A program made the translations under genes and the position numbers. This document shows positions 18,140 through 23,745 of a stretch of DNA of 64,000 bases, piece by piece. The notes under the pieces are model-generated. The model had not been told where the DNA came from, did not search any database, and saw nothing but the letters and a program-made list of their open reading frames with translations. This stretch comes from an uncultured Atopobiaceae bacterium (lineage in GTDB: Bacteria; Actinomycetota; Coriobacteriia; Coriobacteriales; Atopobiaceae). The first letter of the stretch is position 1, and the number at the start of each line of letters is the position of its first letter. The stretch lies in the NCBI GenBank assembly GCA_947631545.1, contig CANRLS010000002.1, forward strand, positions 1 through 64,000, in the 5' to 3' direction.

Positions 18140-19233
18140 GCGCGTCTCCCGCCGCCTCGGCCTCGCCGGCGGGCGAGCTTCTGGCCACAAGCGCCTCCGA
18201 AGCGGGGTTGGACGCGGACCTTGCGCCCTTTCCGAGGGCGGTTCCCTTCGCCGAGGCGCTCGCGCGGAACCCCTTCCTCATGGCCCCCATGGCGGGGGTC
18301 AGCGACAGGGCCTATCGGCTCATGGCCCGCGCGGGCGGCGCAGCGCTCGCCTACAGCGAGATGGTATCGGCCACGGGCCTCGAGTACGACTCCTCGAGGA
18401 CCTGGGAGCTCCTGGATCCCGATGCCGCCGAACCCGACCTCGCCGTGCAGCTCTTCGGCGCCGATCCGGCGCGCTTCAGACGGGCCTGCTCGAGGATCGC
18501 CGAGAGGCTGGGGGCCAAGCTCGCGCTCATCGATGTGAACATGGCCTGCCCGGTGCCAAAGGTGACGAGGCGGGGGGAGGGCTCGGCGCTCCTGGACGAT
18601 CCCGCCCTCGCGCAAGGGATCGTCCGCGCGTGCCGACGGGGCCTCGAGGACGCGGGCTCCGCGGTGCCGGTGACGGCGAAGATCCGCCTCGGCCGCACGC
18701 CCGAGCGGCCGGTGGCCGTCCCCTTCGCGAGGGCGCTCGAGGAGGCCGGCGCCTCTGCCGTGGCCGTCCACGGCCGCTTCGCGAGCCAGCTCTACCGCGG
18801 AAGCTCGGATGACGCCGCCGTCGCCCGCGTGGCGGGCGCCGTCTCCGTGCCCGTCATCGGGTCGGGCGACGTGACCGACGAAGCGCGGGCGAGGCCGCTC
18901 ATCGAGGAGGCCGGCTGCTCGGGCGTCTTCTTCGCCCGCGGGAGCTACGGCGATCCCTGGGTCTTCGACCGGGCCAGAGGGCTTTTGGCCGGGGCCTCGC
19001 CCGATGTTCCGAACCCGGCCCAGCGGATGGCGGCCTGGCGCCTCCATGTGCGGCTCCTCTCCAAGACGGGCCAGCACATCCTGAAGGCGAGGACCATCTC
19101 CTGCCTCTACCTCAAAGGGCTGCCGGGCGCCGCCCGCTGGCGCGACCGCGCCATGGGCTGCGGCGACGAGGCCGAGTTCATCGCGCTCTCGCGCGACGTG
19201 GAGGAGGCCTTGCGCAGGGGAGGCCTCGCGTGA
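18136..19233 (+). CDS. tRNA-dihydrouridine synthase
   Basis: A 365-residue flavoenzyme of the Dus family reducing uridine in tRNA D-loops. The N-terminal [12 protein letters not shown] segment and the [19 protein letters not shown] segment with the catalytic cysteine are clear, as is the later [18 protein letters not shown] region. The GTG start at 18136 overlaps the lepA stop (GTGA), with AAGGTGGG as a ribosome site inside lepA. It belongs to the DusB-like group found in Gram-positive bacteria, but I cannot say which uridines it modifies. Confidence 0.92.
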
Positions 19234-20399
19234 GCTCGGCCGCCTCGTTCGAGGCCCTCTACCTCCACATCCCCTTCTGCCGATCGCGCTGCGCCTACTG
19301 CGACTTCCGCTCGCAGGCGGTGGGGGAGGACGGCGACCTCGCCCGAAGCTACGCGGATGCGCTCCTTCGACTCGTCGGCGAATGCGCGAGCGAGGGCGTC
19401 CTCGATAGGGTTCGGACCGTCTACATCGGGGGCGGGACGCCGACCGCGCTCGGCGAGGGGCTGGCAACCCTCATCGAGGGCGTGCGCGATCTTCTTCCCC
19501 ATGGCCTCGGCGAGCTCACGTTCGAGGCGAATCCGGAGTCGACGACGCCCGAGCTCCTTCGGGCCTGCCGAGAGGCCGGCGCCACGCGCGCGAGCATCGG
19601 CGCGCAATCGAGCGATGACGCCGTGCTGAGGCGCCTCGGACGGATCCACAGCGCGCGCGAGGCCCTCCGCGCCATCGAGCGGGCGAGCTCGGCGGGCCTT
19701 CGCGTCTCCGCGGACCTCATCGCCGGCTGCCCGGGCCAGGGGCCGGGCGACCTCGCCAAGGACGTCCGCCGCATCGTGGGCGCCGGCGCCGCGCACGTGA
19801 GCGTCTACGCGCTCGAGGTCCACGAGGGGACGCCCTTCGGAGACCTCGAGGCCGAAGGGCGCCTCGACGCCCCCGACGAGGACGGGGCGGCGGACCTTTT
19901 GGAAGAGGCGTCCCGCGCCCTCGAGGAGGAGGGCCTCAGCCGCTACGAGGTCTCCAACTACGCGAGGCCCGGGGAGGAGAGCCGCCATAACCTCGCCTAT
20001 TGGGAGGGGCGGGCCTACCTCGGGCTCGGCCCCTCGGCGGCTTCGATGCTCGAAGGGGAGGGCGGTGGAAGGCTCCGCCTCGCGTGCGCGTCGACGACGG
20101 AGGCGGTCGCGGGCGCCCGATCGATGCGCGACCTCTCCTTCGACATCGAGGAGCTCGACCGGCGCCAGGCGATGGCCGAGGACCTCATGCTCGCAGCCCG
20201 CCTCTCGAAGGGCCTCTCGAGGGAGCTCGTCGAGCGAGCCCGAGCGGTGCTCGGGCCCAGGGTGGGAGGGACGCTCGCGTACCTCGGGGATGCCGGCCTC
20301 CTCGAGGCGAAGGGGGACCGTCTCGCGCCCACCGACAGGGGGTGGCTCATGGGGAACGTCCTCTATGGCAACCTTTGGGCGCTCGCCGAGGTCGAGTAA
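19230..20399 (+). CDS. hemW: Radical SAM heme chaperone HemW-like protein
   Basis: A 389-residue radical SAM protein. The [4Fe-4S] motif is CRSRCAYC close to the N-terminus (LYLHIPFCRSRCAYCDF), followed by VYIGGGTPT and the HemN-type C-terminal domain. It lacks features of true oxygen-independent coproporphyrinogen oxidase (HemN), so the heme-trafficking HemW role is likely. The GTG start overlaps dus by 4 nt. LepA-HemW neighbourhood, often followed by hrcA-dnaJ, is a well-known Gram-positive arrangement. Confidence 0.9.
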   Translation: MSSAASFEALYLHIPFCRSRCAYCDFRSQAVGEDGDLARSYADALLRLVGECASEGVLDRVRTVYIGGGTPTALGEGLATLIEGVRDLLPHGLGELTFEANPESTTPELLRACREAGATRASIGAQSSDDAVLRRLGRIHSAREALRAIERASSAGLRVSADLIAGCPGQGPGDLAKDVRRIVGAGAAHVSVYALEVHEGTPFGDLEAEGRLDAPDEDGAADLLEEASRALEEEGLSRYEVSNYARPGEESRHNLAYWEGRAYLGLGPSAASMLEGEGGGRLRLACASTTEAVAGARSMRDLSFDIEELDRRQAMAEDLMLAARLSKGLSRELVERARAVLGPRVGGTLAYLGDAGLLEAKGDRLAPTDRGWLMGNVLYGNLWALAEVE

Positions 20400-20435: not shown

Positions 20436-21578
20436 ATGGCAGGCATGACCGACAAGGACTACTACGAGATCCTGGGCGTCCCGTCGTCGGCCACCACGGA
20501 CGAGATCCGCAAGGCGTTCCAGCGGAAGGCCCGCGTGCTCCATCCCGATGTGAACAAGGAGCCCGACGCCGAGGAGCGCTTCAAGGAGGTCTCCGAGGCC
20601 TATGCCGTGCTCTCGGACGATGCCAAGCGCCGGCGCTACGACGCCATGAAGTCCGGCGGTTTCGGCGCCTACGGGCCCCAGAGCCAAGGGGCCCCGGCCT
20701 CTCCCTTCGGCGGTTCCCCGTACGGAGGGGCGCCCTTCGGGGGCTCGCCCTTCCCCTTCGGCGGCGCGGCGCGCCGCTCGGGCTCCGCCCCGGCCTACAA
20801 GCCCCAGACGGGGGCCAACGTCGTCGTGGAGCTGGAGCTCACGGGCGACGAGGCGGCCCAGGGCGTGCGCAAGACCCTCACCTACCAGCGCTATGTGACG
20901 TGCGACGTGTGCCACGGGACCGGCTCCGAGGGAGCGGAGCGCCATAGGACCTGCCCCACCTGCGGCGGGACGGGGCGCATCAACGTCGACCTGAACGACG
21001 TCCTCGGCGGTTTCGGCATGGGATTCGGCACGATGGTCATGGAGTGCCCCGAGTGCCAGGGGTCCGGTCAGGTGGTGAGCGATCCCTGCCATGCCTGCCA
21101 GGGCACGGGGCGCGTCCAGAGCTCCTCGGAGGTGGTCGTGAACATCCCCGCCGGGGTCCACGACGGCTACGAGGCGCGCGTGGGCGGCATGGGCAACGCC
21201 GGCACCAACGGTGAGACGGGCGGGGACTTCATCTGCCGCGTCGCCGTGGCGGCCGAACGGCTGACCCGAAGGTCCGCCCAGGGCTTCTCCTCCATCGGGC
21301 TCGCGCTGGTGATCCTCCTCGTCGGCATCGTGGTCATGGGGTTCACCCCGTACCTGGCCTCGGTGGGCGTCGTGGCGGCCGTCCCCTTCGCCTACGGCGT
21401 GTACCAGCTCATCGCCGGCGGGCTCGGCGGTCACAACGGCATCTGGTGGAAGCGCGGCGGCCAGGCCGTCGTCCGCGGCATCTCCGAGGGCCTCATGGTC
21501 GCGGTCTTCATCGTGCTCTTCATGAGCTGCACCATGGGCGGCCCCTACGGCTATTACGGCCTCTACGGATCCAGGTGA
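20436..21578 (+). CDS. DnaJ-like protein with membrane C-terminus
   Basis: A 380-residue type I J-protein. In order: J domain (about 6-70, HPD intact in LHPDVN), a glycine/phenylalanine/proline-rich stretch to about 120, and the first substrate-binding domain carrying a complete zinc finger with four CxxCxGxG repeats ([32 protein letters not shown]). After the end of that domain ([10 protein letters not shown]) the second substrate-binding and dimerisation domains are missing. The last 110 residues hold about three hydrophobic helices and a glycine/tyrosine-rich tail. This would tether an Hsp70 co-chaperone to the membrane. It is not a frameshift: the frame is open and terminates normally, 5 nt before hrcA. 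I do not recognise a named family for this layout. Confidence 0.85.
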
Positions 21579-21583
21579 GGCCG

Positions 21584-22555
21584 ATGGTCGCGGGCAGGGC
21601 GATGGCGGTCCTTCGGGCCGTGGTCGAGGAGTACGTGGGCACCTGCGCGCCCGTGGGATCCAAGGCGCTCGTCGACCGCCATGGCATGGGGGTCTCGAGC
21701 GCCACGGTCCGAAACGACCTCGCGGGACTGGAGCGCTCGGGGCACCTCACCCATCCGCACGTGTCGGCCGGACGCATCCCCACCGATCTGGGCTACAGGG
21801 CGGTGGTGGAGGACGGCATCCCCTTCGCCCATGGCCGGGCCATGGACTCGGTGGCCCGCCCAAGCCGGGCGACGAGCCTTCGCGGCCTCTCGCGCGAGCT
21901 GGCGCGGCTCACCCGCTGCCTTGCCGTGGTATCGGAGCCGGCGCCCCAGGGAGCGCGGGTGGCGAGGGTGTCGCTCACCCGCTGCGCCGACGGGCGCGTC
22001 GCCTGCGTGGCCGTCTTCGACGACGGGCACGTGGCGAGCCGCTCGCTCCGCTGTCCCATACCCGACGATGAGCTCGCCCGTGTGGAGGAGGCGGCTTCCG
22101 AGGCCTGCGTCGGCGAGAGGATCGGCGCCGTCGCGGCGGACGGGCGCCTGACGCCCGGGGGCGCGCGCTTCCTCGTGGCGGTCGTCGCCTGCGTGCGGGC
22201 GCTGGCGAGCGAGGCCCATCCTTCGGAGGAGCGGTCGGGGATGGCCTTCCTCCTGGCGCAGCCGGAGTTCAAGGATCCCCAGGTCGTGTGCGTCGTGGCC
22301 GATGCCCTCGAAGAGGCCGACCTGGCGCCCGAGGGCCCCTCGCTCGTCGATGGCGCCGGCCTCATGGTCTCCATCGGCGGTGAGAACGCGGACGAGCGCC
22401 TTCGGAGGATGAGCGTCGTGGCCAAGGAGTACCATGCCTTCTCTGGTGTGGGCTATGTGGCCTGCGTCGGGCCCACGCGCATGGATTACCCGCTGGTCAT
22501 CGGCGCCGTCGAGGCCGCTTCCGAGCGGGCCCGCGCCATCGTGAGCGAAGGCTGA
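21584..22555 (+). CDS. hrcA: Heat-inducible transcription repressor HrcA
   Basis: A 323-residue HrcA. The winged-helix N-terminus is clear (VVEEYVGTCAPVGSKAL, then SSATVRNDLAGLERSGHL) and the HPHVSAGRIPTDLGYR segment is diagnostic. HrcA represses chaperone genes through the CIRCE element and needs GroEL for activity. The ATG at 21584 follows AGGTGAGG, 5 nt after the preceding stop. It lies between two dnaJ genes; grpE and dnaK are not in the window. Confidence 0.92.
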   Translation: MVAGRAMAVLRAVVEEYVGTCAPVGSKALVDRHGMGVSSATVRNDLAGLERSGHLTHPHVSAGRIPTDLGYRAVVEDGIPFAHGRAMDSVARPSRATSLRGLSRELARLTRCLAVVSEPAPQGARVARVSLTRCADGRVACVAVFDDGHVASRSLRCPIPDDELARVEEAASEACVGERIGAVAADGRLTPGGARFLVAVVACVRALASEAHPSEERSGMAFLLAQPEFKDPQVVCVVADALEEADLAPEGPSLVDGAGLMVSIGGENADERLRRMSVVAKEYHAFSGVGYVACVGPTRMDYPLVIGAVEAASERARAIVSEG

Positions 22556-22602: not shown

Positions 22603-23745
22603 ATGGCCAAGACGGATCGCGATTACTACGAGCTCCTCGGCATCGACCGAGATGCCACTCCGAGCCAGGTCAAGCGCGCGTTCCTCGCCAAGGCGAGGGT
22701 CATGCACCCGGACGTGTCCAGCGCCCCCGACGCCGAGGAGCGCTTCAAGGAGATCAACGAGGCCTACTCGGTGCTCTCGGATCCCAAGCGGCGCGAGAAC
22801 TACGACCGGTTCGGCGATCCGGACGGGCCCGGCGGCTTCACTTCGATGGACGACTTCTTCGGCGGCTTCGACATGGCCGACCTCATGAGCGAGTTCTTCG
22901 GTGCCTCCAGGGCCGGCGGCCAGGGGCGCCGCCAGCGGCGAGGGCGCGATATGGCGGCGCGCCTCTCGGTGAGCCTTCGGGAGGCGGCCACCGGGACCGC
23001 GCGGACCATCGCCTACGACCGGCTCTCCGCCTGCGACGACTGCGGGGGCACGGGATCGAGCGGGGGCGAGCCCCCGGTGAGCTGTCCCGTCTGCGGCGGC
23101 ACCGGACGCCAGGTGACCTGGCAGAACACGATCCTCGGCCGCATGCAGACCCAGGTGCCCTGCCCCCAGTGCGGGGGGTCGGGGACGATCGTCGAGCATC
23201 CCTGCGAGACCTGCGACGGCCAGGGCCGTGTGCCCAGCCACGAGGTGGTGGAGATCGAGGTGCCCGTGGGAGCGCGCACCGGCGAGACGCTGCGCCTCGC
23301 AGGGCTCGGCGAGGCCGGCTGGCGCGGGAGCCCGACGGGCGATCTGGTGGTGGAGCTCCTCGTGGAGGACGACCCTCGATTCCGCCGCTCCGGCGACGAC
23401 CTCGTCCAGTCGCTCGAGGTGGATGCGCTCGAGGCGATCCTCGGCTGCGAGATCGAGGTGGAGGGGATCCTCCCAGAGGAGTCCTTCGTGGTGGAGGTGC
23501 CCCCTTCGAGTCTCGAAGGGAGCGGGGTCCGCGTGGACGGGAGGGGCATGCCCAGGCGCTCGGGCCACGGTCGCGGCGACTTCGTGGGCGTCGTCTCGGT
23601 CCACGCTCCCGAAGGGCTGAGCGATGCCGAGCGGGACGAGCTCCGGCGCATGAGCATCGCCCATGGCGGTCGCGTGCGCCCCGCGCCCGCCTCGAGCGGG
23701 ACGGGCGCGAGAAGGGCCCCCAAGCATGCCCGCCATTCGAAGTAG
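22603..23745 (+). CDS. dnaJ: Chaperone DnaJ
   Basis: A 380-residue canonical type I J-protein: J domain (about 4-68, HPD in MHPDVS), glycine/phenylalanine-rich region, four zinc-finger repeats (CDDCGGTG, CPVCGGTG, CPQCGGSG, CETCDGQG), both substrate-binding domains, and a C-terminal tail rich in arginine and alanine. It stimulates DnaK ATPase and delivers substrates. It shares its first 230 residues' layout with the membrane version two genes upstream, but retains the second substrate-binding domain. The hrcA-dnaJ order is classical. Its end overlaps mtaB by 20 nt. Confidence 0.94.
   Translation: MAKTDRDYYELLGIDRDATPSQVKRAFLAKARVMHPDVSSAPDAEERFKEINEAYSVLSDPKRRENYDRFGDPDGPGGFTSMDDFFGGFDMADLMSEFFGASRAGGQGRRQRRGRDMAARLSVSLREAATGTARTIAYDRLSACDDCGGTGSSGGEPPVSCPVCGGTGRQVTWQNTILGRMQTQVPCPQCGGSGTIVEHPCETCDGQGRVPSHEVVEIEVPVGARTGETLRLAGLGEAGWRGSPTGDLVVELLVEDDPRFRRSGDDLVQSLEVDALEAILGCEIEVEGILPEESFVVEVPPSSLEGSGVRVDGRGMPRRSGHGRGDFVGVVSVHAPEGLSDAERDELRRMSIAHGGRVRPAPASSGTGARRAPKHARHSK

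Follow-up and report, generated by a model that had tools for sequence, protein, structure and literature searches.

The window analysed here, a stretch of 64,000 nucleotides from an uncultured Atopobiaceae bacterium, carries at positions 20436–21578 an open frame of 380 amino acids (alternative start at 20445, MTDKDYYE) for a predicted membrane-anchored, class-A-derived J protein with full-length family relatives, here termed TM-DnaJ; all features given in the following lie on the + strand. A hemW-like gene (19230–20399) precedes it, an upstream neighbor that was kept at the locus in our synteny comparison of 22 loci. Only 5 bases separate the TM-DnaJ stop codon from the start of hrcA (21584–22555), encoding the heat-shock repressor (PF01628 above cut-off at C2:21878-22501), which is followed by a canonical class A dnaJ (22603–23745) whose product matches profile positions 3–152 of PF01556 and TIGR02349 to position 351. 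The open frame, as well as the succession of hrcA and a canonical dnaJ downstream of it, had already been recognized in a first-pass annotation of this DNA, and both were borne out. TM-DnaJ and the adjoining class A DnaJ are two of three J proteins in the genome to which the window belongs; the third is a class B DnaJ, encoded in a dnaK-grpE-dnaJ-hspR operon (G000:C39, L005; hspR of the MerR type) that likely represents the Hsp70 partner set of TM-DnaJ.

The N-terminal part of TM-DnaJ has the organization of an ordinary DnaJ. The J domain (residues 8–69; 20457–20642) was identified by PF00226 with an E value of 4.7e-25, includes the HPD motif at residues 36–38 and was modelled by AlphaFold with pLDDT values mostly of 83–91. 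It is followed by a Gly/Phe-rich linker (residues ~73–122; 20652–20801; pLDDT < 50 over residues 75–124) and by the first DnaJ beta-sandwich (residues 130–279; 20823–21272), whose strands in the AlphaFold model span residues 129–135, 144–155, 226–237, 246–249, and 265–271. Inserted into this domain is a zinc finger of four CXXCXGXG repeats (residues 156–225; 20901–21110; PF00684, E 1.3e-12), with all eight cysteines invariant in an alignment of the relatives and canonical DnaJs. The similarity to DnaJ then ends: the Pfam DnaJ_C profile PF01556 was matched at positions 2–80 of 152 only, versus 3–152 in the adjoining DnaJ, and the NCBIfam DnaJ model TIGR02349 scored 250 bits versus a cut-off of 377, with the match terminating at position 266 of 354. 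Thus, the intact J domain and the complete four-repeat zinc finger, but also the absence of the second substrate-binding and dimerisation domains, were all read correctly in the first-pass annotation. Since no part of the first beta-sandwich is missing on either side of the zinc finger, TM-DnaJ, judged by its sequence, keeps one client-binding domain.

In place of the missing domains there is a hydrophobic tail (residues ~284–366) with, as had been proposed, about three hydrophobic segments: predicted TM helix 1 (residues ~284–303; 21285–21344; Kyte–Doolittle (KD) peak 2.59 at residues 286–304; helix 281–300 in the model), predicted TM helix 2 (residues ~308–328; 21357–21419; KD peak 1.60 at 310–328; helix 305–328), and predicted TM helix 3, which carries a conserved SC at its end (21474–21533; KD peak 2.06 at 345–363; helix 351–366). 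Helix 2 is the weakest segment of the window protein and lies just at the threshold; it is stronger in most relatives, with KD values up to 2.85, and in certain relatives just one or two segments exceed the threshold. With the same cut-off, nine soluble proteins encoded in the window (among them HrcA, LepA, HemW, and DnaJ) gave no segment, versus three in DgkA and nine in ComEC, the membrane controls. Helices 2 and 3 are connected by a predicted cytoplasmic loop with a conserved WW[KR] motif (loop 2; 21420–21473), and a short Gly/Tyr-rich C-terminal tail (21534–21575) is predicted, from sequence and alignment, to lie outside. Among 26 relatives, the mean number of Lys plus Arg residues was 0.04 in loop 1 versus 3.2 in loop 2, the latter being devoid of acidic residues; therefore, according to the positive-inside rule, an N-in/C-out topology is predicted, which places the J domain in the cytoplasm and leaves the short tail on the outer side. 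Both tryptophans of loop 2 were invariant in 13 aligned tails, as was the final cysteine of helix 3 (13/13, mostly as SC); the WW motif is absent from the third-family proteins mentioned below and from one further relative (G064). The tails of G064 (L119) and G016 (L110) are devoid of the conserved SC, and that of G064 has an extra terminal hydrophobic segment. A lipobox at the conserved SC was considered and rejected, as position −3 is occupied by F, M, or L among the relatives, which is a poor fit. No Pfam family was consistently found in the tail, the search for known membrane domains giving 24 scattered hits, of which the best (E 0.006) concerned one member.

Structure prediction, a check suggested in the first-pass annotation, gave a good model of one part of the protein. 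AlphaFold, run on a seven-row alignment only, modelled the J domain and the beta-sandwich of the window protein well, and a Foldseek search with the model matched DnaJ structures via the J domain and beta-sandwich 1. The tail appeared as three helices with pLDDT values of 26–58, and in a relative (L009) the first tail helix alone was formed (pLDDT 24–39); the tail helices and their arrangement are therefore only putative as modelled.

Within the window's family, the Atopobiaceae, to which all named relatives belong, 140 genomes were compared, and the TM form was found in 135 of them. Four of the five remaining genomes are drafts in which another J protein only was detected, and the fifth, 57% complete, yielded nothing. 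A tail-only profile picked out the same TM proteins and matched this family, a second family, and two genomes of a third related family. The second family can be inferred to be the Coriobacteriaceae from a Collinsella aerofaciens record with the same protein and the same gene order; the Collinsella protein is listed in RefSeq as “DnaJ domain-containing protein” (WP_320678003.1). This profile, which detects homologous tails only, gave no match in a further family (f2, probably the Eggerthellaceae), nor elsewhere in a class sample, nor outside the order in a sample of 396 genomes of the phylum. The spread of the architecture, which the first-pass annotation had wished to see traced, thus comprises three families as far as tail homology is concerned, and in at least two of them almost all members retain the TM form. 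A mobile or plasmid origin was rejected: the sole match with >80% query coverage in the plasmid collection was a record of 900 kb from Collinsella (NZ_OY725717.1, L121), labelled “plasmid 6”, whose genes are common housekeeping genes of the chromosome, arranged in their usual chromosomal order.

When the shared region (J domain, linker, beta-sandwich 1, and zinc finger) was used to build a maximum-likelihood tree, all 20 TM proteins tested formed one clade with a support of 100/98, separate from the neighboring canonical DnaJs. The four label changes in the tree are due to three mislabelled canonical DnaJs (G020, G024, and G144), called “TM” merely by a crude hydropathy cut-off, and to two distant outgroups. 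In relatives that lack the TM form, the locus is mostly arranged as lepA-dus-hemW-hrcA-dnaJ. The order is hemW-TM-dnaJ-dnaJ in Coriobacteriaceae and most Atopobiaceae, and hemW-TM-dnaJ-hrcA-dnaJ in the window's genus and one other genus; at every locus examined, the TM-DnaJ gene is thus directly upstream of dnaJ or, in these two genera, of hrcA-dnaJ. The single, strongly supported clade and this distribution point to a single old domain exchange followed by inheritance, and the simplest account would be one duplication with domain exchange, then vertical descent with loss of hrcA in most lines. Judged by synteny, the putative source would be either the neighboring dnaJ or an older copy. Median dN/dS values of 0.15 for the J domain, 0.23 for beta-sandwich 1 plus zinc finger, and 0.43 for the tail indicate purifying selection in all parts of the protein, strongest in the J domain and weakest in the tail. 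Some individual loci deviate from the common pattern. In one genome of the third family (G149; L106, 5912–9630), two near-identical tandem TM-DnaJ genes precede the canonical dnaJ, which is either a recent duplication or an assembly artefact. In a 1.0 Mb genome (G029; L109, 7116 onward), the canonical dnaJ beside TM-DnaJ is very divergent, with ~246 amino acids and no second beta-sandwich. In a three-contig genome (G003; L112, 6371–7158), the TM-dnaJ is split over two reading frames, representing either a pseudogene or a sequence error.

J proteins set the place and the target of Hsp70 action, and those of class A normally dimerise in the shape of a V, with each of the two beta-sandwiches offering client sites (PMC8215388). 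TM-DnaJ shares the J domain, the G/F linker, and the zinc-finger-bearing first beta-sandwich with class A proteins such as E. coli DnaJ, S. pneumoniae DnaJ (6jzb, alignable over residues 7–297), and yeast Ydj1 (1nlt), but differs from them in having a predicted TM end instead of the second beta-sandwich, the dimerisation domain, and a soluble C-terminal tail. With a defining part of class A DnaJ lacking, TM-DnaJ is, on sequence grounds, more aptly called a predicted membrane-anchored derivative of class A than class A proper. The E. coli proteins DjlB and DjlC are tail-anchored class C J proteins, DjlC being proposed to serve HscC; they resemble TM-DnaJ in the C-terminal anchor, the cytoplasmic J domain, and local Hsp70 recruitment, all of them predicted in the latter (PMC8215388). 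In contrast to TM-DnaJ, which has beta-sandwich 1 and the zinc finger and hence does not match the class C feature “J domain only”, their J domain is the sole part common with DnaJ, and their partner is HscC instead of DnaK. Among the described J proteins of bacterial membranes, DjlC comes closest to the proposed working principle of TM-DnaJ. DjlA, for which an efflux pump has been proposed as client in Caulobacter, is likewise a bacterial membrane-bound J protein working with DnaK (PMC8215388), as TM-DnaJ presumably does. Unlike TM-DnaJ, DjlA is a class C protein devoid of zinc finger and beta-sandwich. Its TM segment is N-terminal and its J domain C-terminal. The eukaryotic proteins DNAJB12 and DNAJB14 have neither the CXXCXGXG zinc finger nor the DnaJ beta-sandwich. 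These residents of the ER membrane share with TM-DnaJ a cytosol-facing J domain and a TM anchor (both predicted in the latter) and act in membrane-protein quality control (PMC12890720). Plastid FIP and ORANGE are membrane proteins with a DnaJ-type CXXCXGXG zinc finger (PMC5915565), but are devoid of a J domain, and therefore of Hsp70 stimulation, and FIP has two repeats only. A full catalogue of Leishmania J proteins lists class A members with at most one N-terminal TM segment, and the literature searched yielded no class A protein having a TM bundle at its C terminus. The initial remark that no described family with this layout could be named thus held within Pfam, NCBIfam, the PDB, and open-access papers, a scope that does not extend to the principal survey of J-protein architectures in bacteria (Barriot et al. 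2020).

We consider it probable that TM-DnaJ is a cytoplasm-facing, membrane-stationed DnaK recruiter derived from an ancestral dnaJ copy. The starting point would have been a dnaJ copy at the hemW-(hrcA)-dnaJ locus in an ancestor common to the Atopobiaceae, the Coriobacteriaceae, and the third family, in which a membrane anchor of three helices took the place of the second beta-sandwich and the dimerisation domain. By this anchor the protein would be inserted into the cytoplasmic membrane, exposing the short tail on the outer side and the J domain, the linker, and client-binding domain 1 with its zinc finger on the cytoplasmic side. Unfolded or partly inserted proteins may be held by beta-sandwich 1 together with the zinc finger close to the membrane, where the J domain would trigger ATP hydrolysis by the cellular DnaK, such that the general Hsp70 machine would gain a membrane-bound working site. 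Exported or membrane proteins are a reasonable guess as clients. A membrane-recruited Hsp70 partner, as originally suggested, thus remains the best reading, in line with the intact J domain, the orientation predicted by the positive-inside rule, and the conservation of the tail across three families. The low-confidence tail models and the relatives with just one or two segments above the hydropathy threshold count against it. The sequences directly show which domains are present, the hydrophobic segments, one origin with inheritance, and the gene linkage, from which membrane insertion and orientation, recruitment of DnaK, and the type of client are inferred.

Several other explanations were weighed against this one. 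TM-DnaJ might be a dedicated co-chaperone for one or few membrane clients that are bound by the TM helices, with a secondary role for beta-sandwich 1 and the zinc finger. The bacterial membrane J proteins studied are mostly specialists (PMC8215388, PMC10754441), and the tail preserves specific residues (WW, several Gly, SC), that is, more than hydrophobicity; we nevertheless regard this as rather unlikely, as the retention of all eight zinc-finger cysteines and of beta-sandwich 1 at a dN/dS of 0.23 is generalist-like and no obvious candidate client gene was seen at the TM-DnaJ locus among the 22 loci. A speculative and rather unlikely reading is that the TM bundle is an active part besides being an anchor, making TM-DnaJ a class A half-chaperone that would pass hydrophobic segments of membrane proteins between DnaK on one side and the machinery for membrane insertion or degradation on the other, and thereby a bacterial counterpart of the ER-membrane J proteins with one origin inside the Actinomycetota. 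We deem it improbable that the anchored J protein is a sensor of membrane state or heat stress that tunes heat-shock regulation via HrcA or HspR. The gene lies immediately 5' of hrcA in two genera, and the two proteins are nearly complementary across the order: among 199 genomes, TM-DnaJ was present in 101, HrcA in 86, and both in three, all of the window's genus, with locus synteny revealing both in one further genus (G020). However, HrcA is absent from most genomes with TM-DnaJ, the complementary pattern may go back to a small number of losses in the tree, and within the window neither a CIRCE operator nor any HAIR site above chance was found. It is very improbable that TM-DnaJ is a soluble protein with the tail as a buried helical substitute for the missing dimerisation domain: such a substitute might be needed, and AlphaFold did not resolve the tail, but its uncharged segments (KD 1.6–2.85) are like those of DgkA and without equivalent in the soluble controls, and the positive-inside bias is strong. 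Finally, the split gene in G003 would suit a dnaJ duplicate in decay whose end is hydrophobic by accident, an idea that is refuted by the conservation of TM-DnaJ at full length in well over 100 genomes, its single old origin, and purifying selection on all its parts.

If membrane-stationed recruitment of DnaK is the correct reading, TM-DnaJ would represent a class-A-type Hsp40 that is held at a bacterial membrane permanently, and the lineages having it comprise common members of the human gut flora, for example Collinsella. A generalist J protein would here have become tied to one place, its dimerisation half having been traded for an anchor, and TM-DnaJ would offer a test case from nature for the question of whether a single beta-sandwich with the zinc finger suffices to serve DnaK.
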